Source: Iphinoe sp. HA4291-MV1 (GTDB lineage: Bacteria > Cyanobacteriota > Cyanobacteriia > Cyanobacteriales > Nostocaceae). Taken from it: a stretch of DNA of 64,000 nt. Shown in pieces: positions 14,563 through 59,304 of the stretch (position 1 is the first letter of the stretch; the number at the start of each line of letters is the position of its first letter). The position numbers and the translations under genes are program-made. The notes under the pieces were generated by a model. That model was given only the letters and a program-made list of their open reading frames with translations. It was not told the DNA's origin and searched no databases. Location: assembly GCA_019359415.1 (NCBI GenBank), contig JAHHHH010000008.1, positions 1 through 64,000 of the forward strand, in the 5' to 3' direction.

Positions 14563-15792
14563 AACAACAATTTGATTGATTCTGCTTCTTTGTCTACTTC
14601 CTCATCTTTCTCGTTTCGCAATCTCCCAATCTCCCTCATCCCCCTTATCTCCCTCATCTTCTCCTGCTCCCTTATTTCCATAGGGTTAGTTGCTTGCGGT
14701 GGAAGTCAAACTCACGTCGCGACCAAACCACCTTTTAAAAGTCCATCGCCTGGAGACAAGGATAGCAACTTGACTTTCTTTGATGTCATCTTAGAGCAAG
14801 CAGATGAAGTTGGCAGACCAATTTGGAAAGTCAGAGCAAAACAGGCAAAGTACACCAAAGAAAAACAAATCGGTGCGGCTGAAAGTCCATATGGTGAACT
14901 CTACCAAGATGGCAAAGTCGTTTATCAAGTACAAGCTCAAATGGCAGACATTGAGCAAGATGGTAAGCAGTTGTTTCTAAAAGGAAAGATTGTTGCTACA
15001 GATCCTCGTAATGGAATTGTATTGCGCGGTAATGAGTTGGAATGGCGACCTAAAGAAGATTTGCTGATTGTCCGAAACCAGCTCAATGGAACCCATAAAC
15101 AACTACAAGCTGTGGCGCAAGAAGCACGAGTTAAAACTCGTGAACAGCGCATAGAATTTTCTGGAGGAGTGGTGGCAAATTCCTCTGAACCGCAATTGCA
15201 AATGCGAACTGAGCATTTGATTTGGCGAATAAAAGAGGAAACATTGATAGGCGATCGCCCTGTCCAAATGGACCACTATAAAAATAACCAAATTTCTGAC
15301 CGAGGTCGAGGAGATTCTGCTGTTGTCAACTTAAAGACAAAGATTGCCACCGTTACGAAAAATGCCCAAATAGAATTACTAGACCCACCAGTGCAAGTCG
15401 CTAGTAACTCTATGAGCTGGAACCTAAACTCAGAAACCGTAACAACGAATTCTCCCGTGCGGGTTTTCCATCGCGCCGAAAAACTAGCAGTCACTGCGAA
15501 TCAAGGCGAAATGAAGATACCGCAAAAAACTGTTTATTTAACAGGAAACGTCTACGGTGTTGGAGAGCGTCGCCAATCTCTCAAATCAAAAACTTTAACA
15601 TGGTATCTCGACAAAAAATTAGTTGAGGCTCAAGGCGATGTCGTTTATCGCCAAGTGGACCCTCCGTTGGCTTTTACAGGTCAAAAAGCCTCTGGTAATC
15701 TGTACGCAGAAACTCTTGTTGTTAGCGGGGATGGTTCTGGTAACAAGGTAGTGACAGAGATTATCCCACAAGAGAGAAAAGTGAAAAATTAG
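14491..15792 (+). CDS. LptC/OstA-like lipopolysaccharide export lipoprotein
   Basis: Up to 433 residues. From the first ATG the protein begins with seven MRR triplets encoded by the 9-nt repeat; any of eight in-frame ATGs could be used. A hydrophobic stretch and a lipobox LVAC (Cys69 of the longest form) indicate a lipoprotein, though the n-region is unusually long. The rest is beta-rich: a LptC-type domain ([19 protein letters not shown]...) followed by OstA-like segments (GNELEW, TEHLIW, SNSMSW, SKTLTW), as in cyanobacterial LptC, which is longer than E. coli LptC. It should bridge LptB2FG to LptA-like proteins in lipopolysaccharide export. Confidence 0.85.
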
Positions 15793-16135
15793 TAGTTATC
15801 TGTCATTTGTCATTTGTAAAAACCAATGACCAATGACTAATGACCTGGTTGACTGACAAAACTCTGAGGCTGGCGGTTAGAAACCGCACGCCAGGTGCTA
15901 CAACGGGGGGAACCCCCGCAACGCACTGGCTCGCCTACACAAACTAAGTCTGCCTCCGCAGACTAGAAACCATTAATTTTAACCCGCGTAGGCGGGTTTT
16001 GCTTGTGTAGCCGCGACTTCCAGTCGCCAGGGCAAAAAGATTTGTCAGTCAACTAGGACTAATGACTAATGACTAATGACTAATGACCAATGACTAATGA
16101 CTAATGACTAATGACTAATGACCAATGACCAATGA
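15793..16135. repeat. Intergenic repeat block: palindrome plus TAATGAC heptamers
   Basis: Bases ~15860-16045 hold a GC-rich palindromic repeat containing an AACCCGC...GCGGGTTTT hairpin and GTAGCCGCGACTTCCAGTCG; a related copy occurs at ~25690-25795. Bases ~16058-16136 are heptamers of TAATGAC/CAATGAC that run up to the stop codon (TAG) of the following minus-strand gene. Confidence 0.85.
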
Positions 16136-17458
16136 CTAGCCTCCATATAACATCTCATTACGACTAGCTGCACCTAATTGAGGTATTGTGTTCACAGCTA
16201 TGTGAGGAATGAGACTAGCAGGGACACCAGGAGCAACTTGTAATTGCTGCACCAGACGTTGCAACAATTGGTCTTGCCCAGTGCGGAAACCTGCTACATT
16301 CGTACCACGGTTAATGATGGCAAACCAGACCAAACCGCGATCGCGTGTGGGCATCACTCCTGCTAAAGCACTGACATCCCGGAGAGTACCAGTTTTCATG
16401 ATAGTGGCAACAGGTAGGTGTCTGGAGTGCAATGTTCCTCGATGGTCAAACCCTGAGACTGGAAATAAGTCAGCCAATGTCAATTGATAGGTGAGTGCTT
16501 GCTGTTGAATTGCCATAAACATGGCACAAACGGCTCTGGGAGAAATGCGATTTTCCTGCCCTAACCCTGAACCGTTAACTAACTGAATTTCTGATTGCGG
16601 TACTCTTGCAAGCCGAGCAGCTGTTGATTGCACAACCTGCGCTCCTCCTACAGTATCTGCCAGCATTTGAGCTATTTCATTGTTACTGAAGACGTTCATC
16701 TCCCTGATAATTTGCTTTAGGGGTAGCGAGTGGTGACGTAGTAGCAAAGTCTGTTGAGGATTTGCTTGTGCTTCTACTTTCACACCTCCAGCGATAACAA
16801 CTTGAGGTTTGGGAGTTCCTTTTGGCATCAGCAAGTGTTGAAAAGTCGCCGCACGGGACCAAGTAGCGGCATTTAGTACTTGCTTAAGCATCTGACCTGC
16901 TAGCAGCGGATGACGTTGGAAATTCATAGCAAAATTGCCGGTAATGACTAAATTTCCAGTAATACGCTTAATGCCCATCTGGTTGAGACTATTACCAAGG
17001 GCAATGGCTTCTTCCCAAACAAACATCGGATCGCCACCACCTGTAATGACCAAGTCACCTTGTAATACTCCATTGTGCAACGGTCCTGTAGCACTGACCA
17101 AAGTTTGAAATTGGTGATCTGGACCAAGATTCCTTAAAGCAACGAGTGAGGTAGCAACTTTGGTTAAAGAAGCAGCTGGCAGAGGAGTTGTGCCTTCGTG
17201 ATTAGCCATAAGCATCGGTCCTGATTGTATCCAAATTCCCTGGCTTTGGGTCTGATTTGCTGCCACTAATTTCAGTGTTTGCAGTCCCTTGAGATATTCC
17301 AGCACTGTAGTAGCCCCAGCTGGATTTGGATCGGCGGCAAGAACTAAGCCGGGGCTACCTTGCCAAGTTAAGATATCCAAAGCATCTATGGGCTTGACAT
17401 TGACTCCAGCCATTTCAAGCCAAATAGAAATCAAACCTGAACCAAACAATTCCAGCAT
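16136..17458 (-). CDS. dacB: D-alanyl-D-alanine carboxypeptidase/endopeptidase (PBP4 type)
   Basis: A 440-residue class C low-molecular-weight penicillin-binding protein. All three active-site motifs are visible: SLTK (SxxK), SNN (SxN) and KTG in MKTGTLRD. It should trim peptide stems or hydrolyse cross-links of peptidoglycan in the periplasm. The N-terminus is mildly hydrophobic but has no obvious cleavable signal, so export may depend on an unrecognised upstream start. The stop TAG is formed by the edge of a TAATGAC array. Confidence 0.9.
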   Translation of the reverse strand: MLELFGSGLISIWLEMAGVNVKPIDALDILTWQGSPGLVLAADPNPAGATTVLEYLKGLQTLKLVAANQTQSQGIWIQSGPMLMANHEGTTPLPAASLTKVATSLVALRNLGPDHQFQTLVSATGPLHNGVLQGDLVITGGGDPMFVWEEAIALGNSLNQMGIKRITGNLVITGNFAMNFQRHPLLAGQMLKQVLNAATWSRAATFQHLLMPKGTPKPQVVIAGGVKVEAQANPQQTLLLRHHSLPLKQIIREMNVFSNNEIAQMLADTVGGAQVVQSTAARLARVPQSEIQLVNGSGLGQENRISPRAVCAMFMAIQQQALTYQLTLADLFPVSGFDHRGTLHSRHLPVATIMKTGTLRDVSALAGVMPTRDRGLVWFAIINRGTNVAGFRTGQDQLLQRLVQQLQVAPGVPASLIPHIAVNTIPQLGAASRNEMLYGG

Positions 17459-20835: not shown

Positions 20836-20918
20836 TGACTAATGACTAATGACTAATGACTAATGACTAATGACTAATGACTAATGACTAATGACTAATG
20901 ACTAATGACTAATGACTA
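20836..20918. repeat. TAATGAC heptamer array ending on the fabD start codon
   Basis: About twelve near-perfect heptamers (TGACTAA phase) fill the fabH-fabD gap. The last ATG of the array is the fabD start codon. Because seven is not a multiple of three, each ATG in the array falls in a different frame and most are followed at once by TAA or TGA. Confidence 0.93.
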
Positions 20919-21784
20919 AAACCGCATGGGTATTTCCTGGACAAGGTTCGCAGTCCGAGGGAATGGGAATAGACTTATTAGATATGCCATCCGCGCAAGA
21001 AAAATTTGCCAGGTCCAAGGATATATTAGGCTGGTCTGTCATTGAAATCTGTCAGAATGCCGAAAAGCTATCGCACACTTTCTACACACAGCCTTGTTTA
21101 TACGTTGTAGAAAGCATTCTCGCAGATCTCATGCGAGAAAAAGAACAACCGAATTTAGTTGCAGGTCACAGTTTAGGAGAATACGTTGCCCTCTACGTAG
21201 CTGGAGTATTTGAGTGGTCTGTTGGGTTGCGCTTGGTGAAGCGTCGTGCCGAACTTATGGACAACGCCGTAGGTGGTATGATGGCGGCTTTAATGAACTT
21301 TGATCGCGAACAGTTGGAAAAAGTTATTGCCGAAACTCCCGATGTCGTGCTAGCAAACGACAATAGTCCGGCTCAAGTGGTCATATCAGGTACACCCGCA
21401 GCAGTAGAAGCCGTCATATCCCAAGTGAAGGCAAAGCGTGCTAAACCCTTAAATGTTTCTGGAGCATTTCACTCACCCTTAATGGCAGCAGCGGCTGCTG
21501 AATTCCAAAATATTTTAGAATCTGTCGAATTTCAACAAGCTTTTGTACCAGTATTATCAAACGTAGAACCAGTTCCTGCTGTTGATGCGGCTATTTTAAA
21601 ACAACGTTTAATACAACAGATGACTGGAGGAGTGCGATGGCGAGAAATTTCACTAGCACTACCAGAAAATGGCATAGAGCGAGTGGTAGAAATCGGTCCT
21701 GGTAACGTGCTAACTGGTTTAATGAAACGCACTTGTCCTAACTTAATATTAGAAAACGTCCGCAGTCTAGCTGATTTGGGCTAA
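20912..21784 (+). CDS. fabD: Malonyl-CoA:ACP transacylase
   Basis: A 290-residue enzyme that loads malonyl onto acyl carrier protein. GQGSQ lies near the N-terminus, the nucleophile motif is GHSLGEY (~residue 87), and catalytic His is in GAFHSPLM. The start ATG is the last unit of a heptamer array and has no classical ribosome binding site. It ends the plsX-fabH-fabD run; the CRISPR array follows 330 bases later. Confidence 0.96.
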   Translation: MTKTAWVFPGQGSQSEGMGIDLLDMPSAQEKFARSKDILGWSVIEICQNAEKLSHTFYTQPCLYVVESILADLMREKEQPNLVAGHSLGEYVALYVAGVFEWSVGLRLVKRRAELMDNAVGGMMAALMNFDREQLEKVIAETPDVVLANDNSPAQVVISGTPAAVEAVISQVKAKRAKPLNVSGAFHSPLMAAAAAEFQNILESVEFQQAFVPVLSNVEPVPAVDAAILKQRLIQQMTGGVRWREISLALPENGIERVVEIGPGNVLTGLMKRTCPNLILENVRSLADLG

Positions 21785-23006: not shown

Positions 23007-24293
23007 CTAACTGACGACTCTTGACACGCCACATGCTTCTCCTTGCGGAGACGCGCAAGGAACAAGCCGGGGAACCCGTCCAACGCAGTGGCTCAAATTA
23101 ATTGCAGCGTTCAAATCGCGGTCAAGGACAAAGCCACAATGACTGCATTCAAACACTCGCTCATCCAAAGTGAGTGTTTCTTTTTTGGTTCCACAATTCG
23201 AGCAGGTCTTGCTGGATGGAAACCATCTATCAACGACAACAAGCCTGGAACCATATAACTCGCATTTGTAAGTTAACTGACGACGGAATTCAAAAAAAGA
23301 CATGTCAGCAATTGCTTTAGCCAGCTTACGATTAGCCAACATTCCTGATACGTTGAGGTCTTCAATCACTACTGTGCCGTGGTTTTTGGCTAGTAGTGTG
23401 GTGAGTTTGTGCAACGAATATGCACGGATATTGGCAATCTTTCTATGTAGTCTAGCTATTTGCACTTGCGCTTTCTTCCAGTTAGCAGAACCGATAATTT
23501 TATGGCGATTCAACCATTGCATCCTGCTTAACTTAGCTTCGTACTTTTTGTAAGACTTAGCTCCTAGTACCACTTCACCAGTAGAGAGAGTGGCTAGTGC
23601 TTTAACACCGAGGTCAACACCTACAACGTCTGTCCTGTCTGATTCTTGAGCATATCGGGGTCTTACACGTAAAAAATCAGCCTTAGCGCAGCGGCTCCGG
23701 AGGAGCTTCCTTTGTTTCGTTGATTCGTCGGCGTAGTTGGGTACTCGTTCTAATAAGGCTGGCTGATTTTTAGGGGACAATGCGTCTACCTCAAATCTGA
23801 AACTGATAAACCATCTGTCAGCTTGACGCGAGATAGTACAAGATTTTGGTTTGACCTGTGGCAATCGTTCATAGGTTTTGAGTACACCAATCACGGGGAC
23901 TTGAATCTTGTTGCTACATAGGATTTTGACAGTACCTTCAAGCGTGAAAGAGTCGCGCTTACCTTTTTTCTTGAACAACGGATGACCAGCAGTTTTGTTA
24001 AAACAACGTTTCCAAGCTTCTCGTAAAGCCATTAATGCCTGCTGAGGAGTGGATTTACTGCATTCGTAATACCATTCATTTTCAGATTTTACTAATGCGA
24101 CTAACCATTTATGCAAGTCTATAGCACTAGGAAATTTGATTTTTGAATCAGGGTTGGCTTTGTTGTGATCTAGAATTTGCTTGGTTAAAGCCAATCCCCA
24201 GTTCCAAGCATGACGCGCTACGCCGCAATGCTTCATTAATGCTGTAGCGGCACGATTATTTAATTTCAATTCTGTTTTGAAGCCTAATAGCAT
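23007..24293 (-). CDS. tnpB: IS200/IS605 family TnpB nuclease
   Basis: About 428 residues from MLLGFKTEL (24293); the frame can be read from 24314, inside a repeat. TnpB is an RNA-guided nuclease of IS200/IS605 transposons. RuvC acids are present: Asp in VVGVDLGVK, Glu in VVIEDLNVSG, Asp in LDRDLNAAIN; the zinc ribbon is CSNC...CSHC. No TnpA partner is in the window. Between the bridge-helix region and the first RuvC motif, ~43 residues (DALSPKNQ...RVRPRY) are encoded by an inserted palindromic element. The C-terminal CVGRVPRLVPCASPQGEAC stretch is also repeat-derived. All frames stay open, so the gene may still be expressed. Confidence 0.88.
   Translation of the reverse strand: MLLGFKTELKLNNRAATALMKHCGVARHAWNWGLALTKQILDHNKANPDSKIKFPSAIDLHKWLVALVKSENEWYYECSKSTPQQALMALREAWKRCFNKTAGHPLFKKKGKRDSFTLEGTVKILCSNKIQVPVIGVLKTYERLPQVKPKSCTISRQADRWFISFRFEVDALSPKNQPALLERVPNYADESTKQRKLLRSRCAKADFLRVRPRYAQESDRTDVVGVDLGVKALATLSTGEVVLGAKSYKKYEAKLSRMQWLNRHKIIGSANWKKAQVQIARLHRKIANIRAYSLHKLTTLLAKNHGTVVIEDLNVSGMLANRKLAKAIADMSFFEFRRQLTYKCELYGSRLVVVDRWFPSSKTCSNCGTKKETLTLDERVFECSHCGFVLDRDLNAAINLSHCVGRVPRLVPCASPQGEACGVSRVVS
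23657..23785. repeat. Palindromic element inside the tnpB reading frame
   Basis: About 129 bases: left arm GGGGTCTTACACGTAAAAAA, inner inverted repeats TCAGCC / GGCTGA, right arm TTTTTAGGGGACAATGCGTC. It shares arms and middle sequence (TTGTTTYGTTGAT, TACTCG, TAATA) with the copy at 24308-24416. It also holds a further GC-rich palindromic insert (GCGGCTCCGGAGGAGC). It adds a whole number of codons to tnpB without a stop. Confidence 0.8.
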
Positions 24294-24307
24294 TGATTCG
24301 ACCTTTC

Positions 24308-24416
24308 GACGCATTGTCCCCTAAAAAATTAGCCAGCCCTTGTTTTGTTGATCTATGTTGTCCCCTGGCGTACTCGAAGTAATAGGGCTGGCTAATTTTT
24401 TTACGTGTAAGACCCC
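24308..24416. repeat. Second copy of the palindromic element, upstream of tnpB
   Basis: About 109 bases bounded by GACGCATTGTCCCCTAAAAA on the left and TTTACGTGTAAGACCCC on the right, with inner inverted repeats TTAGCCAGCCC / GGGCTGGCTAA. Its middle runs in the same direction as the 23657-23785 copy, but the outer arms are exchanged. Confidence 0.8.
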
Positions 24417-27376: not shown

Positions 27377-27440
27377 CAATGACTAATGACTAATGACTAA
27401 TGACTAATGACTAATGACTAATGACTAATGACTAATGACT
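27377..27440. repeat. TAATGAC heptamer array overlapping the ydcF-like stop codon
   Basis: About nine perfect heptamers. The TAG stop of the minus-strand ydcF-like gene (27432) lies inside the array, so the repeat now defines the C-terminus (Asn-Ser-His) of that protein. Confidence 0.92.
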
Positions 27441-30299: not shown

Positions 30300-32243
30300 G
30301 TGAAACCGCGTTACGCGCTCAAGTCGTTTTCTGATTTAGGCATCAAGCACAGCAGTCACCTGATTATGACCAAACTCCACTGGTTAGAAGTTGGCGAATA
30401 CGCTTCTCTCTCTCTCTCAGCATTAGGATTAGTTACAGCCGCTATCACACAACAGATGATTTATGCAGCTGCTCCCTTGACTGTAACAGTTTGCTTGAAC
30501 GTCGCTAATCGGGAAAGGTTAAAGTATTTGACTCAGCAGCATCAACAAGCAACAATTGCCAAATTAGATTTACTTATGGATCCACTTCGACAGCGGTTGA
30601 CAAACTTCGATACTTTCACTCAAAAACTGAGTGCTACAACCGAACAGCAGTTTGAGGACCTACGAAATAGCCAGCAACAAGATGTCAGTATTTTGACACA
30701 GCGTCTTGAAGAATTTGATGCCTCTTTCCAAGAGATCAGTACAAAAATTCAACAGCAGATACAGGTATTACAGCAAAATCAGCAAGAACAGAATACCGAT
30801 GACCTTAGAATGCACCTCACTCAACTCGACACCCTTATGCAACAGTTGAGTACAACAACACAACAGCAGATTGACCCAATTTCTCAGCGCCTTTCTCAAC
30901 TGGACTCCTTTGCACAGCAATTGAATCAATATACTCAGTACCAGATACAAGCATTACAGCAAACCCAGCAGGAACAAAATGTTGATGCGATGAGTCAACA
31001 CCTGACTCAGCTTGATGACTTCACACAACAGTTAAATACAAATACTCAAAAACAGTTCCAAGAATTCCAGTACGCGATCGCCCTACTTCAGACAGAACTA
31101 CAAGAGTTGTCCCAGCTAAAGCAGCAATACCAAAATTCGTCAGAAAAAAAGTCTCCACAATCTCCAGAAGCAACGACTAAACCACCAATCCAAATCCCGC
31201 AAAAGAAGCAAAACACAAATTCTGCTCCCAACCTATCTCCAGTCACAGCAATACAAACCCCAAACTTTCAGGTAAATAACACAACAAAAGAAGTCTCCGC
31301 ACCCATTCTGACTGCATCTCCATCACCGCCAATAGCAGAGGATCTCACGACTCAAAGTACTGTTGCACATAGAGTGACATCCGTCGCCTTTAGTCCTAAT
31401 GGGCAAACATTAGCCAGTGGTTGTGATAACAAAACTATTAAAATTTGGCGTTTAGCTGACAAGGAACCTCGCATTCTTAGGGAAACTGGAGGATTTTCTT
31501 GTTCTAGTGGAGTGAATTCCGTAGCATTTAGCCCTGATGGTAAGATTTTGGCAAGTGGAAGTGATAACAAAACGATTCAGTTGTGGGATATTTCCACAGG
31601 AAAAGAAATCTGCACCTTCACAGGGCATAAAGAAAAAGTTGATGCTGTTGCGTTTAGCCCAGATGGAAAAACTTTAGCCAGCGGTAGTAGAGATAAAACT
31701 ATAAAGCTTTGGTCTATAGATACAAATAAAGAAACATCTACACTCTATGGGCATTGTGACGAGGTTTTATGCATTGCTTTCAGTCCAGATAGCAAGATTT
31801 TAGCCAGTGGTGGTGCAAGGAAGGATAAAACTATCAAAGTTTGGTATCTGGCTGAAAATAAATTTTTGACTCTTAAGGGTCATTCTGAAGAATTGGGAGG
31901 AATTCATTCTATTGCTTTTAGTCCAGATGGTCAACAGATTGCAAGTGGCGGTACAGACAAGACTATCAAGATTTGGCAACTCTCAAGCGGTCAAGAACTC
32001 AAAACTCTTGCAGGACACTCTGATGATGTTTATTCGGTGACCTTCACTCCAGATGGTAAGCAGATCGCAAGTGGTAGTAAAGACAAAACAGTAAGACTTT
32101 GGCAAATGGAGACAGGAAAGGAAAACCGTACTTTCACAGAGAGTGAAGAGCCGATTTATTGCATTGCCTGTAGCCCAGATGGTAGGACATTAGCAGCTGG
32201 TAGCAATGGTGATAATACTGTCATGCTATTGCCTTGTGATTAG
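30300..32243 (+). CDS. Membrane-anchored coiled-coil WD40 protein
   Basis: 647 residues from a GTG; ATG at 30369 (MTKLHWLEVGEYAS) is an alternative. Layout: two hydrophobic stretches (~residues 36-65); a long Gln-rich coiled coil (~75-285) built of recurring LTQLDxxxQQLxxxTQxQ units; a Ser/Pro linker; then seven WD40 repeats (~350-647; for example VAFSPDGKTLASGSRDKTIKLW), enough for one beta-propeller. A membrane-tethered scaffold is likely. Partners unknown. Confidence 0.85.
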   Translation: MKPRYALKSFSDLGIKHSSHLIMTKLHWLEVGEYASLSLSALGLVTAAITQQMIYAAAPLTVTVCLNVANRERLKYLTQQHQQATIAKLDLLMDPLRQRLTNFDTFTQKLSATTEQQFEDLRNSQQQDVSILTQRLEEFDASFQEISTKIQQQIQVLQQNQQEQNTDDLRMHLTQLDTLMQQLSTTTQQQIDPISQRLSQLDSFAQQLNQYTQYQIQALQQTQQEQNVDAMSQHLTQLDDFTQQLNTNTQKQFQEFQYAIALLQTELQELSQLKQQYQNSSEKKSPQSPEATTKPPIQIPQKKQNTNSAPNLSPVTAIQTPNFQVNNTTKEVSAPILTASPSPPIAEDLTTQSTVAHRVTSVAFSPNGQTLASGCDNKTIKIWRLADKEPRILRETGGFSCSSGVNSVAFSPDGKILASGSDNKTIQLWDISTGKEICTFTGHKEKVDAVAFSPDGKTLASGSRDKTIKLWSIDTNKETSTLYGHCDEVLCIAFSPDSKILASGGARKDKTIKVWYLAENKFLTLKGHSEELGGIHSIAFSPDGQQIASGGTDKTIKIWQLSSGQELKTLAGHSDDVYSVTFTPDGKQIASGSKDKTVRLWQMETGKENRTFTESEEPIYCIACSPDGRTLAAGSNGDNTVMLLPCD

Positions 32244-34564: not shown

Positions 34565-35404
34565 TTATGTGGAACTCACTAAAGTAATCACAGTAACTTC
34601 TGGTGGGCAAAATAAACGCCCTGGTGGATAAGTCCCTAACCCACGATTAATGTAGAGCTGATTTGTTCCTACCTTGTGAAAACCCTGTGCCCATTCCCAG
34701 TGTTTCACGACTTTAGAACAATCTCCTCGCAAAAATGGCACCCATCGCCGCAGTTTTTTAGGAAGTTTACGAATAAACCGCTTATAGTAAACTACCAAAG
34801 GACCAATTCCTGGGAGTACAATTTGACCACCGTGGGTATGACCAGATAGTTGTAAATCCACTCGCCATTTTTGTAATATTTCAGCAGTATCTGGGTTGTG
34901 GGATAGGACAATGCAAGGTGTAGTACCATCTAGCTGGTTCATCACAACTTTAGGATTAAATTCTCGTGACCAGTAATCAGCTAACCCAACCAGAGGTAAT
35001 TCTTTGCCTAAAGGATATGCAATTTCATTCCAAAGAACTTTGACACCTATACTATCAAATGCAGCTGTCACTTCTGCTTGTGAACGACTGTTGTAATATA
35101 TATCATGATTACCAAGCACGGCATAGATTCCAGCGCGGCTTTGCAAATGTTTGAGTCGTAGCACCAGCTGATGAATTGGTGATGGATCGTCAGTTACATA
35201 ATCGCCTGTCAATACAACTAAATCTGGTTCAGCTTCGTTACTGAGAGCGATCGCTTCTTCCAACATTTCTTCCGACAGCCGCTTACCGTCATAATGTAGG
35301 TCTGACATGTGTACCAGCTTCGTACCTTGTAACGATTCTGGCAATCCTACAATATTAACCGTCAACTTTTCGATGCTTAGAGGTCCAGATAACAACCAGT
35401 GCAT
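34565..35404 (-). CDS. YkuE-like metallophosphoesterase
   Basis: A 279-residue calcineurin-like phosphoesterase with all metal motifs: SDLHYDG (DxH), TGDYV, GNHD, SHNPD, and GHTHGGQ. This pattern with LGNHD and RGLGTYPPGRLFCPPE fits YkuE/LpxH-related enzymes acting on phospho-lipids or other phosphoesters. The N-terminus lacks the transmembrane or Tat segment of some relatives. Standalone and divergent from the Mrr-ParA gene. Confidence 0.9.
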   Translation of the reverse strand: MHWLLSGPLSIEKLTVNIVGLPESLQGTKLVHMSDLHYDGKRLSEEMLEEAIALSNEAEPDLVVLTGDYVTDDPSPIHQLVLRLKHLQSRAGIYAVLGNHDIYYNSRSQAEVTAAFDSIGVKVLWNEIAYPLGKELPLVGLADYWSREFNPKVVMNQLDGTTPCIVLSHNPDTAEILQKWRVDLQLSGHTHGGQIVLPGIGPLVVYYKRFIRKLPKKLRRWVPFLRGDCSKVVKHWEWAQGFHKVGTNQLYINRGLGTYPPGRLFCPPEVTVITLVSST

Positions 35405-35696: not shown

Positions 35697-36839
35697 ATGG
35701 AGCCTGTTTACATAAAAGACTACAGCCACTTTGAACAGCACGTAGCAACACTTCTCCATAGGGCGGGGTGGACAGTTATAACTGCCAAATCAAACCAGCC
35801 TGGTTATGATTTAATTGTTAAAAAAGGAAATTTAGTTGGCGCTGTTTCCATCAAGTGGCTAAGAAACAATGTCGCCGCACCGCAGCTTTTAAAATTTGCC
35901 AATTTTTTAGATTCTGATGAAGGCAAAAAGTTTAATTTTGGCTTATTTATAACAACAAGAGGTTTCAGCGGACCTGCGCTGGCTTTAATCAGATCCTGGG
36001 GTAAAGATGCTAAAATCCGCTGTGGAATTGCGAAGGAAAATAAGCTTGCTGGGATAGATAGTGCTGACTACGAAGATAGAGTTAATGATGACTCAATTAG
36101 ACCAGAAAAAGTTTATTTTGGCATTTTTACCTGTAAAGGTGGAGTTGGTAAAACGACTATAGCAGGACATTTAGCAGGAGCATTTGCACTACAAGGATTC
36201 AATGTGGCGCTTGTAGACTTAGATCCAGAACAAAATTTGCAAAAGCTAGTGGGTGATGGGGTTTTTGTTCCTAATCATAGAGGTATGGGAACGACAATTG
36301 AAGTGTTTGATGGCAGAGATTGGCATGAAGATTCCGCCCGTGATTGTAAGATAGTCATTTGCGATTGCTCGCCTGCACTTGAGCGTAACCCTACAAACTT
36401 AGTCGAGAAATTTCACTATTGTCTTATACCAACAACTTTAAATCCGCTAGGTTTAAACAAGCATGGTAAAGTTATTCGAGATACTGTGATAGAAGTACGT
36501 CAAATTAATAAAAATGCTCACTTGTTTGTTCTAGTTAATAACTTTAAAAATCCTGGTTCTCAGAAATTACGTCTTCTCAGAAAAGTTTATTTCGAGACGT
36601 ATAAAGATATTATCAAAACAGATGAGAAATTTCATTGTATAGACCCAAAAGAAGTTTGTATTCGTGCTAGTGAACAACTTTATTATTGGGGGATACATAT
36701 TCTAGAAAATCCAGAAAATCCATCTAGCAAATTAGCATTTGACCTGGTTGGAGGAACTTGCTATCCGCGTGATGATTTTATCCGCTTGGCAGATTACATA
36801 GAGAGAAAAGCTGGTATCGGAATCCTGCGAGATCGGTAG
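35697..36839 (+). CDS. Mrr-like PD-(D/E)XK domain fused to a ParA/MinD ATPase
   Basis: A 380-residue two-domain protein. Residues ~8-120 resemble the Mrr_cat restriction endonuclease fold: FEQHVATLLHRAGWTVI, then PGYDLIVKK with Asp38, and AVSIKW with Lys53; the usual E/Q before xK is Ser51, so catalysis is uncertain. Residues ~138-380 are a ParA-type deviant Walker ATPase: CKGGVGKTT (147-154), VALVDLDPEQN (~170-180), and KIVICDCSPAL (Walker B). There is no ParB, no methyltransferase and no plasmid gene nearby; neighbours are a phosphoesterase and menB. Plausible role: ATP-controlled, oligomerising DNA-binding or DNA-cutting protein, possibly defence. Function not known to me. Confidence 0.85.
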   Translation: MEPVYIKDYSHFEQHVATLLHRAGWTVITAKSNQPGYDLIVKKGNLVGAVSIKWLRNNVAAPQLLKFANFLDSDEGKKFNFGLFITTRGFSGPALALIRSWGKDAKIRCGIAKENKLAGIDSADYEDRVNDDSIRPEKVYFGIFTCKGGVGKTTIAGHLAGAFALQGFNVALVDLDPEQNLQKLVGDGVFVPNHRGMGTTIEVFDGRDWHEDSARDCKIVICDCSPALERNPTNLVEKFHYCLIPTTLNPLGLNKHGKVIRDTVIEVRQINKNAHLFVLVNNFKNPGSQKLRLLRKVYFETYKDIIKTDEKFHCIDPKEVCIRASEQLYYWGIHILENPENPSSKLAFDLVGGTCYPRDDFIRLADYIERKAGIGILRDR

Positions 36840-36943: not shown

Positions 36944-37777
36944 ATGCAAATTAACTGGCAAACAGCTAAAACCTACCAAGACATTTTTTATCACAAAGCT
37001 GATGGCATTGCCAAAATTACCATCAACCGTCCTCACAAACGAAATGCCTTTCGTCCCAAAACCGTTTTTGAACTGTACGACGCCTTTTGCGATGCCCGCG
37101 AAGATACTAGTATCGGTGTTATCCTATTTACTGGTACTGGTCCACACACTGACGGTAAGTACGCTTTCTGTTCAGGAGGCGATCAAAGTGTACGAGGACA
37201 CGCCGGCTATGTTGACGATGATGGCATACCACGTTTGAACGTACTAGACTTACAACGCCTGATTCGTTCTATGCCAAAAGTCGTCATTGCCCTTGTTGCT
37301 GGGTATGCGATCGGCGGAGGACACGTCCTTCACTTAATTTGTGACCTAACCATTGCTGCTGATAACGCCATTTTCGGGCAATCTGGTCCTAAAGTAGGTA
37401 GTTTTGATGGAGGTTTTGGTGCTAGCTATCTTGCTCGCGTTGTTGGACAAAAAAAGGCGCGAGAAATCTGGTTTCTCTGCCGACAGTACAATGCACAGCA
37501 AGCACTAGAAATGGGCTTAGTTAATTGCGTTGTTCCAGTAGAACAAATTGAAGCTGAAGGTATTCAGTGGGCGCGAGAGATTTTAGAAAAAAGCCCGATC
37601 GCCATTCGCTGTTTAAAAGCAGCATTTAACGCTGACTGTGATGGACAAGCTGGTTTGCAAGAATTAGCTGGCAATGCCACCTTACTTTATTACATGACAG
37701 AAGAAGGAAGAGAGGGAAAACAAGCATTTCTAGAAAAGCGTCCACCTAACTTTCATCAATATCCCTGGCTACCTTAA
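36944..37777 (+). CDS. menB: 1,4-dihydroxy-2-naphthoyl-CoA synthase
   Basis: A 277-residue crotonase-fold enzyme forming the naphthoate ring in phylloquinone/menaquinone synthesis. [42 protein letters not shown] and [18 protein letters not shown] are MenB hallmarks. Full length, ending HQYPWLP. A strong hairpin terminator follows after six bases, so the transcript ends here. Confidence 0.96.
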
Positions 37778-49420: not shown

Positions 49421-52339
49421 CTAATTCACCTTGAAGGTACCAACACTCGCCTGCAATTGCTGAGAAATCTCAACAGTTTGTTGCAAAGATTGGGAAACCT
49501 TCATGGAAGAATCGCTAGTGCGCTGCGAGGAAGCAGCAATGTCTTTCATGAATTGGCTCACTGTTTGCGATGTTTGCACCTGTGATGCTGTCGCAAGAGA
49601 AATCGATTGTACAAAAGCGTCAATGTGCCGCGATATCTCCAATATCTGAGCCAGATTTTGCTTGGCATCTTCGACTATTCGTGTTCCCTCCACCACCTGA
49701 GTGGTTCCTACCTCCATCGCTTGCACCACTTCGGTGGTTTCGCGTTGGATATTCTCCACAATTTGTTCTATTTCTTTAGTCGCCACCGCTGAACGACTTG
49801 CCAGTTCCCCGACTTCTTCTGCTACCACCGCAAAACCTTGACCTTCTTCTCCAGCGCGTGCTGCTTCAATTCCTGCGTTGATGGCGAGTAAGTTGGTTTG
49901 CATGGATATCTGATTGATTAATGCCACAACACGGGAGATTTGTTGTGTTGATTCGCCCAAGCGCTTGACTTTCTTGGTAGTTTCGCCGACTGTCTCGCGC
50001 AAATGCAAGATGTTCTGCACTGTCATATCCATTGCCATGCCACTCTTTTTGGCAGTTTGGGCTGCACTGTTGGCAACAGCTGCTGCTTGCTGAGCACTGT
50101 ATGCCACTTGTTGAATGGATTGGGTCATCTCATCGACCGCATCCAGTGTATGGTTGATTTCTGCGGCTTGAGTGAGTGCTTCTTCTGCCAGTTGGTGGAT
50201 TGCTCCAGAGTTGGTCCCGATCGCCTTATTGACTTGCAATGCCGATACTTTCACTTTCGTCACAATCAAGCGCAAACTTTCAACGATAGAGTTGAAAAAG
50301 TCTGCAACTGTGCCAATTTCTCCTGTCGTCACTTCAGCACGCACCGTCAAATCACCCTTAGCTGCACCTTCAATATCATTTAGCAGTTCCAGTAACTGCG
50401 TTTGCAGGGCTTCTTTTTGTTGCCGTTCCTGAATTGAAGCTGTTTCAGCAATTTTACGACTTTGTTCCATTTGTTGGAGAAGCTCTGATTGTTCTAGAGC
50501 ATAACCAACTTGAATTGCAACTTGCTTAAACAAGGTGATTTCTATATCTTGCCACTTTCGGTAATCCAAACACTGATGCACTACCAATAAACCATATAGC
50601 TTTTTGTTGAGGAAAATAGGTGCCAGTAAATACGCTTTGACGCCAAATGATTCGAGGTGTTTAAGGTATTGCTGACTCAAATTAGCTTCGTAAATGTTTT
50701 CAACTACTTTAACCTGACCTATTTTATACTCTTGAGAGTGTTCTTCTGCATCAAAGGGTTTAGTAACGTTTGTTCTTAAAGCTGATGACCCTTCGTAATT
50801 AATGGATTTAGTAATAACTGTACCTTGATAGTTCTTATCTAAATGATAAAAAAGTACTCGCTCAACTTGTATGGTTTTTCGCGTGCTAGAAACTGCTGCT
50901 TTCAAGATTTTTTCAGTGTCTAATGATTCACGCATAGACGCAGTTATTTCATTGAGTTGCAGTGCTAGTTTTGTTTCATTTTCTTGGTATCGAATTTGCT
51001 TTGTGATGCCATCCGCCATTATGTTAAAATTAATAGCCAACTGACCTACTTCATCAGTAGCGAAAATCTCAGCACGAGAAGAGCGATCGCCTTTAGCAAA
51101 TTTTTGCGCTGTTTGCTGTAGACTTTCGATAGGTTTGATAATTGTCCGCCTAAGAATGACTGCCCAGATAGCAATGATGATGAGGGCTAGAACAACGGTG
51201 AGGGCTTGCTCCACCAAACTTTGTGTCAGTAAATAATTTAAAGCTTTTTCTGGAGTTCCTCGCACTAAAATAGCACTTGATTGTCCGTCAAAAACTGCTG
51301 ATGGTCCATTAACTTCTTCAACTATTTTATTGGGGACAGCCTTTGCTGCTATTGTGTAAGTTTGGTTACCTACTACCATGCGTCCAGTAACCACTTTTCT
51401 TTCGGTTGACCTTGCTGCTTCTTGGAGTAAAGATTCCCCTTCTTTTTTTGGTAACTCTACAATAGAGCGAGCTTGGTTTAAATCCTCAGATTGACCTTTA
51501 TCCAGAGAAGTTGCTAGAGCAAATTCTCCCGTAGGTTTGCGTAAATAAACAGCACTGTAGCCACCTCCAGTAGCTTGCAAAGTATTTCTCACAATAGGGT
51601 CTTTGCCATTAACAATGTCTCCAGAAATTAAAGCACCAACCACAGTTTGTGTCTTTGGATCTCTTACAGGAGTTACCGTATAACGAACGAGAGCATCTTT
51701 ATTACTAAAACCTTTTGGTAAAGGAGGTGATTCTCTATTCAGGTCTGACCAGCTAACAATTCTACTGGCTTTAATTTGTCTGGAATTTCTAAAAACATCA
51801 CTGACTAAGTTGTGAGGATTGAAAACTTCACCTTCACGATTAGCATTAGCATTAACAATAATCTTAAAATCTTTACCTACTAAAGTAGCATACTCAATTT
51901 TGCGAGCCTTAATTTCGTTGACGAGAATTTGCTTTACTTCCGCTTTTAAATCTGAGCTTAAAGTTGTCTTTGAATCATAGATAACAGATGCTTTAATAAT
52001 TGCAGTATTATCTGATTGTCCTCGAAAGCCAAAGCCCATTTGATTAACTTTAATATTGTAATTTATATCCAAAACTGCAACTTCTGACTTGGCTTGTTCA
52101 AACAGTTGAGTCCGCAAACCGTTAGTAATAATTAAGGTGGCTCCAATACCTATTCCCAAAATAGATACTAATTCAGAGGCAATTAAAGCAATTAACTGTT
52201 TGCGGCTAATAGGAAGGTTATAAAACCATTTCCTTATAGACATAATGACTTTTTTTCGGTCGGCAGCAATATTTGCTTCTTCAATTGAGTGCGGTATCCT
52301 ATTATTTTTAGTCAGTAATATCCCGTTATTTTTAGTCAT
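49421..52339 (-). CDS. Methyl-accepting chemotaxis protein (Cache-HAMP-GAF-MCP)
   Basis: 972 residues. TM1 at ~43-70 ([21 protein letters not shown]), a large periplasmic Cache-like domain, TM2 at ~375-395, HAMP, a GAF domain (~465-620), then the MCP signalling hairpin with tip [20 protein letters not shown]. The GAF lacks both cysteines seen in the paralogue (KPFDAEEH instead of [13 protein letters not shown] instead of AACYT), so it should not bind bilin. The last ~930 bases are nearly identical to those of the MCP gene at 56432. It lies 918 bases downstream of the cheA-like gene, perhaps with its own promoter. Confidence 0.93.
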
Positions 52340-53257: not shown

Positions 53258-56200
53258 TTAGTTAGAAGCTTCTGCCATAGGCAAAACAATTTCATCTAAA
53301 GTTTTCAGTAATTCTTGCTCATTGTAAGGTTTGGAGAAGTAGGCTCTGGCACCCAATTGTATTGCCAGTTGACGATGTTTGTCGCTACTGCGAGAGGTTA
53401 ACATGGCGACTGGTATATCTTTAAAGTCAGTGTTTGATTTGATACGACCTAAAAAGCCATAACCATCAACACGAGGCATTTCAATATCACAAATCACAGC
53501 CTGAACTCTCAAACCACTTTGAAGTTTTTCTAGCGCATCTTGACCATCTTTGGCTTGTTCTACTTGATATCCTCCTTTTTCTAGAGTTAGGGCTAAGAAA
53601 CGCCGGACATTAATTGAGTCATCTACAATTAAAACTGTGCCTTTTTGATGAATTGGCAGTACTGATTTGTCGCTAGCTGGTGTCAGGAAAACAGTCTTTA
53701 ACCTTGCTGATGGTAGTTGATTGGTTCTGGGCGTGCGCTCATTGGTAGCAATCCAATAAAGTAACTCGTTGGCATTCACCAGTGGAACTACCCGACCATC
53801 ACCCAGAATCGTACAGTTGTTAAAGCCACTAGGCAGAGGTATGTTTCCTTCAACTCGACGGATAGCAACTTCTTGCTCTCCCCAACAACGATCTACTTGC
53901 ACCGCCACTGGTTGATTACCTTGGTTGACGATGAGTATGCTAGCAGCATTAATTGCAGGGGGAGTTTCCAAGTTCGGGTTATCGTAACGAGGGCAATTAA
54001 ACTCTAAATGCCGACCGAGGCGAACCAAAGGTAGCATGTTTCCTTGCCAATTAAGGATTTCGCTGGTCGCCATTTGGAATATCTGCTCTTGATCAAGCAA
54101 GAATATCTCCGAAACCACATCTGTGGGAAATGCTAAAAGCATTCGATTGCTTTCTATCAGTAGGACTCTTGCGACTGACAGTGTAAACGGCACTGATAGT
54201 GTATAAGTCGTCCCCTTTCCTGAGACGGTATCAACTTTAACGTCTCCCCGCACTTGTTTCAGGTTACTGCGAACCACATCCATTCCGACACCGCGCCCGG
54301 ACAAGGTTGTCACTTCGTCAGATGTGCTAAATCCTGGCTCAAAAATGAGCGATAGCAGTTCTTCATCAGTAGCTTGCGCTATGAGAGTTGGCTCTAACCC
54401 CATAGCTATAGCACGAGTGCGGATTTTATCTAGTGGAATCCCACGTCCATCATCTCTGAGGGTAATGATTGTGCGATTGCCTTGATGCGTGGCTTTAATC
54501 TCAATTAATCCTTGTTCTGACTTACCACAAGTGCGGCGTGTTGCCGGATCTTCGATACCGTGGTCGAAGGCATTTCGCAACATATGCATCAAAGGTTCAT
54601 TTAAAGCCTCCAAGATGCTACGTTCAATCAAGATACCAGCACCCTCGATTTTCAGTTGCACGTTTTTGCCGTACTCTACACACAGGTCGCGCAAAGCTCT
54701 AGGAAAGCGATCAACAATATCGGACAGCGGACGCATCCGTACTTGAGTTAGCTTTCTTTGCAGCTGCTTGGATGTTTTGGTGAGTTTGCGGGCAAATAGG
54801 TCTGTATCGTCAATACTGAGTTGAATATCAGTGGTGACTTCTTGCACCTGAACGATAGTTTCCATCACTTCTTGAGAGAGCAGGTTCAATTCGTTATAGC
54901 TATCCATTTCTAAGGAATCAAACCTACCTTGTGTCTGGTCGCTATCGCCAGATGCTATGATGTCCTCTTCGTTTTCACTCGGTGGTAACCCCGGCAATAA
55001 TGGAACACCAGATGGCAGCATGCCCTGAGTTGCTATCCTGTCGTAAGCTGTACGTAATTGCTGATTTTCTCTGTCGAGAGTTTGCACTCGCTGGTTCAAG
55101 TTGCGAATAAGTTTGCGTAACCTCTCCAGTTGTAAATTCAATCCGTTGCGCTGAATAATCACTTCCCCGAACAAATCGTTAATTTGCTCGAGTTGCTTAC
55201 TGGGAACTCGGACTGTATTTTCTTGAGGTTCACTCTTATTGCTACCAACAGTTTGTTCAACTTTACGTTCAACAAATTTGTAATTTGTTGTTGGAATTTC
55301 TTGAGAAACAACCGTCTCTGGTGGCACTTCAACTTGAGTGTTACTCTCATCAGCAAAAGCTGCTTCTAAAGCTTCAAAATCAGCTGCAATGATTTCACGC
55401 TCCAGCCAAGTTTCTTCAGTTTTTTCTGGTTGCAGAATATCTGGTTGTGCAACTTCTGTTTCTGGGTCTAGTGTGAGTGCAACTTCTACGTTTAGCAGTT
55501 CTGGTTGAGTTTGTACTGCGGCTTCGACAGCCAAATCCTCAGGCTGAATTTCTGTTGGTAAGCTATCGAGTTGATTTGTGATGACCAAAGCTTGCGATCG
55601 CCGCCATCCTTCCAATGCCGCACGGGCAACTATTTCAATCTCAGAGGAAGCAGCAGTTTCCAAGTGGTTTGCCACTGATTCGCAAAGTTGAGTAAAAGCT
55701 CGTAATTGCAGCATTTCACCCAAACCACCCAACTCAGCTGCCATAATCGCAACTTCTTCTTTCAAACAGGGCTGTTCGCCATCTGCCAATACGGATTCTA
55801 AGCGTTGCAAACACCCTTCTACTTCTGTTTCAAACAGTAAAGGGATGATGTTTTGCCCATCCTCTGGAGACAGCATACTTGCTGCATCCTCTGAAGTTGG
55901 GTCGCCTAAACGCGTATGCAGTTCTTCAAAAACTGGATAACAGAAAGTCGATAACCACTGCTCATCTATAGTATTGCCTTGTGATAGCAATTCCACTATC
56001 TGACGTAGCCAATCTACTCCAGATAGCAATAAACTTTGCAACTCCGTGTCAATTTCTAGAGAGTTTTTTCTAGTTTTTAAAACTTTAAAGGAATCTTCCA
56101 GACGATGAGCTAAATCGCTTAGGGCGCGAAATCCCATCATCCCTGCCCCACCTTTGATTGAGTGGGCAGCTCGAAGTGCAGCATTGATTTTTTCTAAAGA

Positions 56201-56311
56201 GATGCGATCGCTGGTACTGAGTTCCAGCAATATCCCTTCCAGGATATTCAGGTAATCAGTCGCTTCCTCCAGAAACTGCATCTGGATTTCTAATTCTTTG
56301 TCTTGTGACAT
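53258..56311 (-). CDS. CheA-type hybrid histidine kinase (PilL-like)
   Basis: 1017 residues. An Hpt domain at ~1-110 with phospho-His in AAHSIKGGAGMMGF (~50); a second helical Hpt-like region without the histidine (~160-255); an acidic linker; a dimerisation helix pair (~370-420); a CheA ATPase with MHMLRNAFDHGIEDP, LRDDGRGIPLDKI and GRGVGMDVVRSNL; a CheW-like domain; and a C-terminal receiver (LIVDDSINVRRFL, Asp in VICDIEMPRVDG, Lys in YFSKPY). It takes signals from the MCPs via CheW and phosphorylates the CheY and PATAN receivers, controlling type IV pili-driven motility. Fourth of five genes in the main run. Confidence 0.95.
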   Translation of the reverse strand: MSQDKELEIQMQFLEEATDYLNILEGILLELSTSDRISLEKINAALRAAHSIKGGAGMMGFRALSDLAHRLEDSFKVLKTRKNSLEIDTELQSLLLSGVDWLRQIVELLSQGNTIDEQWLSTFCYPVFEELHTRLGDPTSEDAASMLSPEDGQNIIPLLFETEVEGCLQRLESVLADGEQPCLKEEVAIMAAELGGLGEMLQLRAFTQLCESVANHLETAASSEIEIVARAALEGWRRSQALVITNQLDSLPTEIQPEDLAVEAAVQTQPELLNVEVALTLDPETEVAQPDILQPEKTEETWLEREIIAADFEALEAAFADESNTQVEVPPETVVSQEIPTTNYKFVERKVEQTVGSNKSEPQENTVRVPSKQLEQINDLFGEVIIQRNGLNLQLERLRKLIRNLNQRVQTLDRENQQLRTAYDRIATQGMLPSGVPLLPGLPPSENEEDIIASGDSDQTQGRFDSLEMDSYNELNLLSQEVMETIVQVQEVTTDIQLSIDDTDLFARKLTKTSKQLQRKLTQVRMRPLSDIVDRFPRALRDLCVEYGKNVQLKIEGAGILIERSILEALNEPLMHMLRNAFDHGIEDPATRRTCGKSEQGLIEIKATHQGNRTIITLRDDGRGIPLDKIRTRAIAMGLEPTLIAQATDEELLSLIFEPGFSTSDEVTTLSGRGVGMDVVRSNLKQVRGDVKVDTVSGKGTTYTLSVPFTLSVARVLLIESNRMLLAFPTDVVSEIFLLDQEQIFQMATSEILNWQGNMLPLVRLGRHLEFNCPRYDNPNLETPPAINAASILIVNQGNQPVAVQVDRCWGEQEVAIRRVEGNIPLPSGFNNCTILGDGRVVPLVNANELLYWIATNERTPRTNQLPSARLKTVFLTPASDKSVLPIHQKGTVLIVDDSINVRRFLALTLEKGGYQVEQAKDGQDALEKLQSGLRVQAVICDIEMPRVDGYGFLGRIKSNTDFKDIPVAMLTSRSSDKHRQLAIQLGARAYFSKPYNEQELLKTLDEIVLPMAEASN

Positions 56312-56431: not shown

Positions 56432-59239
56432 CTAATTCACCTTGAAGGTACCAACACTCGCTTGCAATTGCTGAGAAATCTCAACAGTTTGCTGCAAAGA
56501 TTGGGAAACCTTCATGGAAGAATCGCTGGTGCGCTGCGAGGAAGCAGCAATGTCTTTCATGAATTGACTCACTGTTTGCGATGTTTGCACCTGTGATGCT
56601 GTCGCAAGAGAAATCGACTGCACTAAAGTGTCAATCTGCCGCGATATTTCCAATATCTGAGCCAGATTGTGCTTGGCATCTTCGACTATCCGTGTTCCCT
56701 CCACCACCTGAGTGGTTCCTACCTCCATCGCTTGCACCACTTCGGTGGTTTCGCGTTGGATATTCTCCACAATTTGTTCTATTTCTTTAGTCGCCACCGC
56801 TGAACGACTTGCCAGTTCCCCGACTTCTTCTGCTACCACCGCAAAACCTTGACCTTCTTCTCCAGCGCGTGCTGCTTCAATTCCTGCGTTGATGGCGAGT
56901 AAGTTGGTTTGCATGGATATCTGATTGATTAATGCCACAACACGGGAGATTTGTTGTGTTGATTCGCCCAAGCGCTTGACTTTCTTGGTAGTTTCGCCGA
57001 CTGTCTCGCGCAAATGCAAGATGTTCTGCACTGTCATATCCATTGCCATGCCACTCTTTTTGGCAGTTTGGGCTGCACTGTTGGCAACAGCTGCTGCTTG
57101 CTGAGCACTGTATGCCACTTGTTGAATGGATTGGGTCATCTCATCGACCGCATCCAGTGTATGATTGATTTCTGCGGCTTGAGTGAGTGCTTCTTCTGCC
57201 AGTTGGTGGATTGCTCCAGAGTTTGTCCCAATCGCCTTATTGACCTGAGTTGCAGCTTGTTGAACTTGAGTCACAATCAAGCGCAAACTTTCAACGATAG
57301 AGTTGAAAAAGTCTGCAACTGTGCCAATTTCTCCTGTCGTCACTTCTGCACGCACCGTCAAGTCACCACTAGCTGCACCTTCTACTTCAGATAGGAGTTC
57401 TAAAAGTTGCATTTGTAGGGTTTCTTTTTGTTGGCGTTCGTCTTCGGATGATCTTTCTGCTATAGCCCGTGCTTTTTCTACCTCTTCAAGAAGCTGTGCT
57501 TGCTCTAGAGCATAGCCGACTTGAGTGGCGAGCTGTCTAAACAGATCTATCTCAGCTTGTTGCCAATTCCGGGGGCTGTCGCAATGATGAGCAATCATCA
57601 AACCCACCAATTGCCCTTCGATCATAATTGGTGCCACCAAATTTGCCTTAACTGCAAATTTCTCCAACATTTTGGTGTAACAAGCTGCATTGCTTAGATT
57701 GGCATCTTGATAAATGTTGGATATTGCCCGCACTCGACCATCCTTATAAGTTTCTGCATGACGCTCTCGAAAACAGGGATCGTCAATTTGAACTCCTAAC
57801 ATTCTTGGTAAACCAGCCGTAACTGATTCAGCAACGACATCTCCATCCCAGGTTTCTGGATTGAATTTATAGATGAGAACCCTGTCTGTCTTCATGACCT
57901 GACGAACTTCCCTCACAGCTGTTTTATAGATGTCCTCAACTTTCAAGCTTCTACGAGTACGCAGGATAATCTCTGTAAGTAACTTCGCCTTTTCAGTGTC
58001 CAGCTCTTGGTGTTTCACTAGGGTTTGGAGTTGCGACGCCATTTGATTAATGTTATGACTCAAAATGCCAAACTCGTCTTCTGATTGTACTTCCAAACGG
58101 GTATCAAGTTCTCCCTTGCCAAGTTTTGCCACTGCTGCGGTCACTTTGGTAATTGGTTCTGTGGTTCGTTTCGCTAACCATACCGCAATCAACGCGACAA
58201 TTAATGCTGTCAATCCTGTTCCGATCGCTACTGTTAACAATAGTTGCCTTTGAGGCGCAAATGCGGTTGCTGTATCTGTAGCTAGAATGAATTGCCAATT
58301 CAAATTAGGCAATCCATCTTGCGTTCTGGATGAGTAGCTGACAAGTTGCTCTTGGTTATCAGTGATAAAAGTATCGTCTTTTCTTTGTGCTTGCCGTTCG
58401 GCTAAACCAGGAAAATCTACTCTGGCACTTCTACCTATATGTTTTTTATCTGTTGCCAAGAAGAATTTGTTCGATCCATCAATCAAATAGTATTTCTGTC
58501 CTGACTCTACAGCATAATTTTTGACGACATTCTCTAGAGCTTTCACGGGTATCCTAGCTTTGACTATAGCGATAGTTTCTCCTGTGCTACGTTTGACAGG
58601 TGCTGCGATAATAACGCTCAAATTCCCCGTATTTTTTGTTACTTCTGGTTGACTGATATAAAAACGGTCGTTTTGTTGTACTGCTTGAAAGTCCCGACTA
58701 CTGCTTTGATTGGCAATGGAATCTCCCCGATATTGTGCAATAACATCACCGTTTAAGTTAAGTACCACAATGCTGTCATAGACTTTGTAAGTATCTACAA
58801 ACTTATCCAGCAATGCTTGCTTTTCCTTTTGAGAGAGAGTATCACCAAGCTTAGAATTTGTGAAGATTGGTAGACTAGATATAAATTGAATATTGTTATA
58901 CCGCTCTACCATGAAACGGTTGACTTTGTCTGCCAGACTTTTCGCTTCCGCTTGTTGAATTTGGGAAACTTTATTAGTTAATGAGTTATTTGCAACTAAG
59001 TAGGCAAGCGCTCCAGTTGCTAAGACTGGAAGCGTCCCAATAGCGATCGCGAGTAATGTCGCTTTGGTACCTAAACTTAGCCGCTTCAAAGAAGATGTAC
59101 GATTCGGTGTAGAATCACCAGCAATTTCAGTATTCACCTCGTGAAGCAGTGTTATGTTATTTTCTGTGAGATTTTCAGATGAAGAAATGGATGTTCTATT
59201 TTGAGTATTAATATCCTTAGTTGCATCAGTTTTATTCAT
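56432..59239 (-). CDS. Methyl-accepting chemotaxis protein with cyanobacteriochrome-like GAF
   Basis: 935 residues from ATG 59239, chosen because AGGAGA stands nine bases upstream; a GTG at 59302 is the alternative. TM1 ([20 protein letters not shown]), periplasmic Cache domain, TM2 ([20 protein letters not shown]), HAMP, GAF (~420-590) and MCP signalling domain with [20 protein letters not shown]. The GAF has DPCF (Cys489) and, 31 residues later, AACYT (Cys520), in the places of the two cysteines of DXCF cyanobacteriochromes; the usual Cys-His is Cys-Tyr. Bilin binding is thus possible but unproven. Third from last in the minus-strand chemotaxis run. Confidence 0.94.
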
Positions 59240-59304
59240 AAAGATATTCTCCTGAGGTGGTGAATGAAAATATGAAAAATCAGTGTTTTCTTTGGAGTAC
59301 ACTC

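Follow-up and report, generated by a model that had tools for sequence, protein, structure and literature searches.

The window analysed here is a stretch of 64,000 nucleotides from the cyanobacterium Iphinoe sp. HA4291-MV1 (contig G000:C122 of a 7.36 Mb genome assembly in 140 contigs), and it carries an open reading frame that joins an Mrr-like nuclease fold to a ParA-type ATPase in a single protein (Table 1). The reading frame and residue numbering given by the first-pass annotation of this DNA are exact, with D38, K53 and the Walker motifs confirmed in the translation, and its description of an Mrr-like segment followed by a complete ParA-type domain likewise holds: both halves score above their Pfam cut-offs (Mrr_cat, PF04471, E 3.2e-10, 40.6 bits vs. 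a cut-off of 21; CbiA, PF01656, residues 145-289, E 1.3e-13, 51.5 bits vs. 25.4), the fold being called by sequence profile and the ParA-type motifs being intact. The motifs comprise PGYDLIV (containing D38) and S51-I52-K53-W54 in the N-terminal half, and CKGGVGKTT (146-154), LVDLDPEQN and ICDCSP in the ATPase; the Pfam scan of the window protein returned no domain beyond Mrr_cat and CbiA. Elsewhere in the window, two large minus-strand ORFs that we take to be of the methyl-accepting type (49421-52339 and 56432-59302) are by eye near-identical in their C-terminal part and flank an ORF at 53258-56311 that is presumably CheA-like, and the minus-strand ORF at 23007-24314 presumably encodes, to judge by its sequence, a TnpB/OrfB-type transposon protein. 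At 14491-14563, some 8 tandem copies of a 9-base unit (ATGAGGAGG) encode the start of an ORF, the true start of which may lie downstream. Arrays of 7-base tandem repeats with 94-100% matches, a common feature of filamentous cyanobacteria, lie at 10806-10860, 16057-16138, 20836-20919 and 27378-27440. The same genome holds another Mrr_cat match (L049, G000:C127:134573-134842), which looks broken because there is one TAA inside the matched stretch.

Table 1 Features of the fusion gene and its immediate neighbours, in window coordinates.
Feature	Position	Strand	Basis or remark
Divergent metallophosphoesterase gene	34565..35404	-	292 bases from fusion gene; conserved by position
Mrr-fold/ParA fusion gene, 380 aa, ATG start	35697..36839	+	ORF, Pfam, homologues
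Mrr_cat (PD-(D/E)XK) domain, residues 10-99	35724..35993	+	PF04471; aligns weakly with Hjc 1gef by profile
Glu13, motif I acidic residue, pairs with Hjc E9	35733..35735	+	Alignment
Asp38, motif II, pairs with Hjc D33	35808..35810	+	Alignment
Ser51 (Gln in 31/31 sequences outside the window clade), pairs with Hjc E46	35847..35849	+	Alignment
Lys53, motif III lysine, pairs with Hjc K48	35853..35855	+	Alignment
ParA/MinD-type ATPase core, about residues 137-289	36105..36563	+	PF01656; hhalign
Deviant Walker A TCKGGVGKTT, residues 145-154	36129..36158	+	K147 and K152 invariant in 42/42
C-terminal family region, residues 290-380	36564..36836	+	19/91 columns invariant in 20 members
menB, 104 bases after fusion gene	36944-37777		NCBIfam

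Homologues with the same fusion, which the first-pass annotation had proposed to look for, do exist. All 20 that were scanned match both Pfam families at E 0.01 or better, and full-length relatives with 61-92% identity are found at 18 loci of named records, all of them cyanobacterial (the closest being Nostocales cyanobacterium HT-58-2, Scytonema, Tolypothrix and Brasilonema). The fusion is thus more than a product of chance or of assembly, and since the 20 include five members of a more divergent set (39-44% identity; L029-L033, the same genes with longer flanks being L042-L046), it is old in the family. Directly downstream of the divergent fusions at L042 and L045 lies, by eye, the same large ORF in opposite orientation. 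One main-type and one divergent fusion occur together in each of three genomes (G306, G382 and G005). With a 20-row profile and the best 5 or 8 candidates per genome scored, a fusion match at E 1e-40 is present in 39 of 218 genomes of the taxonomic family and in 11 of 386 genomes drawn across the phylum. Within the window genus the fusion is present in seven of eight genomes, and the eighth is 89% complete and gives no match for the adjacent phosphoesterase either. The family is therefore conserved in architecture but patchy in occurrence. It may be wider than these counts, because the scan of named records used exact peptide patterns that reach close relatives only, the profile searches were made within cyanobacteria, and a limited number of candidates was scored per genome.

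What kind of domain forms the N-terminal half? PF04471 matches 19 of 19 N-terminal pieces (best 1.8e-14), and other Pfam families match as well: PDDEXK_5 in 13/19, NA-iREase1, an inactive-REase family, in 11/19 (best 2e-5) and, weakly, Hjc in 4/19 (best 0.0067). When the N-terminal profile (A3, 19 rows) is compared with solved structures, five matches are obtained, all with E 0.5 or worse, two of which are Hjc-type resolvases and three unrelated. In the weak alignment to 1gef (E 0.75, chain residues 8-52), E13, D38, Q51 and K53 of the family fall on E9, D33, E46 and K48, which are the motif I, II and III active-site residues of Hjc according to an excerpt of PMC1913061. We consider it exceedingly improbable that Mrr_cat was matched spuriously and that the N-terminal half is another kind of domain: such a reading could draw on the poor matches to solved nucleases, but PF04471 is found in 20/20 full proteins as well as in every N-terminal piece, the related PDDEXK_5 and NA-iREase1 match too, and the four active-site columns stand at the places expected from the fold.

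The state of that site differs within the family. We compiled a motif table of 42 distinct coding sequences (exact duplicates dropped), made up of 33 of the 39 family carriers, loci L019, L026, L027 and L028, and five members of the divergent set; the carriers outside it are G420, G436, G532, G540, G552 and G556. Position 51 is Gln in all 31 sequences outside the window clade and in none of the 11 inside it, where Cys (6), His (3), Ser (1) and Ala (1) are found instead. These 11 Q-less rows come from three genera and form one clade with support 100/100. Conservation of Asp38 and Lys53, a check suggested at the outset, is nearly complete: both are present in 11/11 sequences of the window clade, and outside it in 30/31 and 31/31, respectively. 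E13 is likewise kept in 30/31 outside the clade, and the sole exception for both E13 and D38 is the divergent L030, which has no E13 and an Asp one column earlier. Inside the clade E13 is replaced by Lys in 3/11 rows; these are separate tips, each beside a row with Glu, so that they are most simply explained by three changes. The rest of the family hence has a complete D-QxK motif, a form known from the PD-QxK sites of EcoKMrr and MspJI (PMC12707154, from the part of the article available), and the window protein lacks a complete D-(E/Q)xK motif, with D38 and K53 present and Ser51 in place of the Gln.

This raises the question as to whether the N-terminal domain of the window clade is simply decaying. 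Selection was gauged as mean dN over mean dS from pairwise NG86 estimates, for which the pairs are not independent. For the Mrr domain this ratio came to 0.121 among the Q-less rows, vs. 0.127 for 15 comparison rows and 0.143 for the 8 of these that belong to the Nostoc group; the corresponding ATPase values are 0.090, 0.095 and 0.108. With a ratio near 0.1 in the Q-less clade, the Mrr domain is not drifting, and relaxed selection across the whole domain in the window clade, which we had considered, is not seen in these ratios. Changes were also counted in columns that are unvarying in the other main rows. In the Q-less clade (set A), 7 of 24 such Mrr columns have changed vs. 2 of 111 ATPase columns (p 7e-5), compared with 5/22 vs. 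12/121 in set B (p 0.14) and 1/18 vs. 4/113 in set C (p 0.53). The basal divergent set D (C and D are not clades) also has an excess, 16/33 vs. 22/131 (p 3e-4), with E13, D38, Q51 and K53 not among its changed columns. An Mrr excess alone is therefore not specific to the Q-less clade, since D shows one too; what is specific is the loss of a motif residue by the whole set. Q51 is the only such Mrr-domain column lost in every row of a set, the ATPase columns lost in this way being E202 in B and F190 and T199 in D.

The suggestion of the first-pass annotation that Ser51 could mean binding without cutting thus gains support, as a suggestion, from a Gln that is gone in 11/11 sequences of one clade in a domain that is still constrained. 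Loss of activity is not certain, because residues capable of binding metal (His and Cys both are) replace the Gln in 9/11 clade rows. A stronger form of decay, in which the gene of the window lineage is a functionless remnant of a former nuclease gene, appears highly unlikely to us. The loss of Q51, together with that of E13 in 3/11 rows, could be taken as its signature, but none of the listed family matches contains an internal stop, dN/dS is about 0.1 in both domains, which by itself already disfavours a remnant, and the gene is kept in 7/8 genomes of the genus, the eighth being the incomplete one.

In the ATPase half, K147, K152, D174, D176 and D223 are invariant in 42/42 sequences, so that both the deviant Walker A (KGGVGKT) and the Walker B aspartate are in place, and hhalign pairs residues 141-286 with a two-sequence alignment of ordinary ParAs (probability 99.0). 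The last ~90 residues are left unaligned to those two proteins; among 20 members, invariant columns number 3 in residues 1-136, 44 in 137-289 and 19 in 290-380. Seven ParB_N matches, six of them over the cut-off, are found in the window genome, and none on the window contig; by eye, no parB was recognised within two ORFs of the fusion in 13 loci. A ParA-type gene of the same genome (match at C106:4579-4791), by contrast, is directly followed by a ParB_N-matching gene (match at C106:5586-5813), and ParB also adjoins the Polaromonas plasmid ParA used for comparison. A simple partition gene with a ParB partner, which the first-pass annotation had named as one case that would overturn its reading, is consequently not supported, because there is no ParB_N match on the window contig.

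The window protein hit 12 plasmid and 97 phage records, none of which covered at least 80% of it in one place. Two divergent relatives used as queries hit 1155 and 324 plasmid records with the same outcome, and a full-length fusion was confirmed in none of the 56 viral-contig stretches in which a pattern matched. A plasmid or phage partition gene was accordingly rejected as the main reading, there being no full-length copy in the plasmid, phage or viral-contig records hit, and the role in plasmid or phage control that had been put forward initially is not supported, in view of the same counts (0/12, 0/97 and 0/56) and of scanned neighbours that, one weak case aside, have no defence match. In a broader version the protein would be an ATPase for positioning or segregation, akin to ParA, MinD or McdA, with the Mrr fold as an adaptor for DNA or cargo; this seems to us unlikely, although several points favour it. 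Larger plasmid ParAs have an N-terminal DNA-binding domain at a place comparable to that of the Mrr fold, the ATPase motif residues are invariant and the core aligns with ordinary ParAs as described above, and the same chromosomal neighbour recurs in 21/32 loci. Set against this are the absence of a ParB_N match from the contig (an ordinary ParA encoded in the same genome has ParB next to it), the best NCBIfam match (ParA_partition, at 53.4 bits well under the cut-off of 180) and the 179 of 218 family genomes without a match.

That recurring neighbour is the metallophosphoesterase gene, which is the nearest upstream conserved neighbour in those 21 carrier loci; the downstream genes vary by group. 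In the window, a mechanical minus-strand ORF overlapping the start of the fusion gene was skipped in naming it. The phosphoesterase is not the nearest upstream conserved neighbour in L011, L019 and L039-L046 (in L039 a relative of it lies ~4.6 kb away), and L010 is truncated by its contig end. The phosphoesterase is present in 15 of 16 selected genomes, and 14 of those 15 have no fusion match; we therefore read its proximity as a position shared by descent and rejected a functional partnership. When the same place was searched in 14 family genomes with the phosphoesterase and without the fusion, 13 gave no fusion match at E 1, and the remaining one (L075) gave a single match (E 4.5e-7) on a separate ParA-type ORF ~5.7 kb away. 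In one genus, G191 (L034) carries the fusion between the phosphoesterase pair and another ORF, hydrolase-like as we read its sequence, and in G019, G024 and G042 (L076, L078 and L079) the same two flanking genes lie 40-121 bases apart with no fusion between them. Since the same position is common to several genera, these data suggest an old gene that has often been lost.

The neighbourhood also bears on a role in defence. A Pfam scan of four window neighbours identified the phosphoesterase, MenB and a decarboxylase and gave no match for a 112-residue ORF. A restriction-modification pair was rejected, as no methyltransferase is found among these four, nor by eye within two ORFs on either side in 13 loci; the exception, L037, has a SAM-methyltransferase-like ORF two genes away that is by eye of the small-molecule type. 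Defence-island context is common, though not constant, for type IV restriction and anti-phage systems. No such context is seen at the window locus, where nine of ten flanking genes have no PADLOC-DB match at E 1e-5 and the tenth (ORF 30300-32243, presumably a WD40-like protein) has a weak ZorA-like match (E 3.8e-6). These observations count against a reading in which the protein is an active, solitary, ATP-controlled Mrr-like restriction nuclease directed at foreign or modified DNA, with Ser, His, Cys or Ala at position 51 tolerated in the window lineage too, as do the PADLOC-DB matches of the fusion protein itself (three, all weak, best E 6e-5 and mostly over the P-loop) and the losses of Q51 in 11/11 and E13 in 3/11 clade rows. 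Its appeal comes from Q51 and K53 being kept in 31/31 sequences outside the clade, from the patchy occurrence (39/218), which is often a trait of defence genes, and from the contrast between G191 and its three congeners that have the two flanking genes and no fusion. On balance we regard it as rather improbable.

How does the fusion compare with known systems? With the Mrr-type PD-QxK endonucleases EcoKMrr and MspJI it shares the Mrr_cat match and, outside the window clade, the D-QxK motif; it differs in its fusion partner, a ParA-type ATPase where those enzymes have a winged-helix or an SRA domain, and in the missing motif Gln of the window clade. Hjc resolvase is alike in the four aligned active-site columns and in the few weak Pfam matches; the sequence similarity is very weak, and Hjc has no ATPase domain. 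ParA/MinD-type proteins (ParF 4dzz, Soj, McdA) have the deviant Walker A, the Walker B and the overall core in common with the fusion, which departs from them in the absence of a ParB_N match from its contig, its N-terminal nuclease fold and its unaligned C-terminal region. Mrr-NACHT, wH-Mrr-NTPase and RAMA-Mrr-NTPase proteins also combine the nuclease fold and an NTPase in one chain (PMC1913061, PMC11037411); in the excerpts of these articles the NTPase is NACHT, of unstated type or McrB-like, not ParA, and no further domain was matched in the window protein. Both Mrr-like REase and MinD/ParA-like domains are among the effectors of conflict systems of multicellular prokaryotes, but, as far as the available part of PMC7159879 goes, as separate effectors of multi-gene systems with the MinD/ParA-like domains predicted to be inactive, whereas the fusion is a stand-alone gene with intact ATPase motifs. 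Excerpts of two further articles describe an Mrr-family domain in Argonaute-linked proteins (PMC2743648) and Orc/CDC6 ATPases that carry inactive REase domains as insertions (PMC10853773). A ParA-Mrr fusion is not named in the titles or abstract openings of the literature matches listed, which mostly leave out the subscription literature and so are no proof of absence. The combination of a nuclease fold with an NTP switch is thus known already; what was not found described among the matches listed, as far as these texts extend, is ParA as the switch.

ATP makes ParA-type ATPases dimerise, and these proteins bind DNA or other surfaces; PD-(D/E)XK enzymes, too, often act as dimers. The simplest mechanism would combine the two properties: ATP binding would let the ParA halves form a sandwich dimer, and this dimer would bring two Mrr-fold domains together on DNA. 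Most of the family, with D-QxK intact, would then be an ATP-gated dimeric nuclease that cuts, and in the window clade cutting would be lost or much weakened while ATP-gated DNA binding would be kept. The ancestral protein was probably a DNA cutter, an activity that has probably disappeared from the window lineage, and a cutting site without its key residue in a domain that is maintained suggests that the protein binds DNA under the control of ATP instead of cutting it. The explanation we favour, to which we give about an even chance of being correct, is that a single chromosomally inherited gene encodes an ATP switch that acts without a partner and contacts DNA through its nuclease fold, presumably a nuclease ancestrally, in which cutting would have been lost or much weakened in the window clade. 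A bolder proposal, which we put forward as a tentative one with the chances somewhat against it, is that in one lineage of filamentous cyanobacteria an ATP-gated ParA-nuclease became an ATP-switched DNA binder deficient in cutting, with the fold now selected as a reader or clamp and the Q51 relatives representing the still-cutting form.

ParA ATPases are positioning switches that bind DNA or membranes, and nucleases are enzymes that require control. If the two are stably joined in one gene that has no adjoining ParB, the product would represent a type of ATP-gated nuclease not found among the literature matches listed. Because one clade has lost the motif Gln and its relatives have kept it, the question of cutting vs. 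binding is directly testable by comparing natural proteins, and if the bolder proposal is true, this family would show, in naturally occurring proteins, the states before and after the conversion of a nuclease to a DNA-binding switch.
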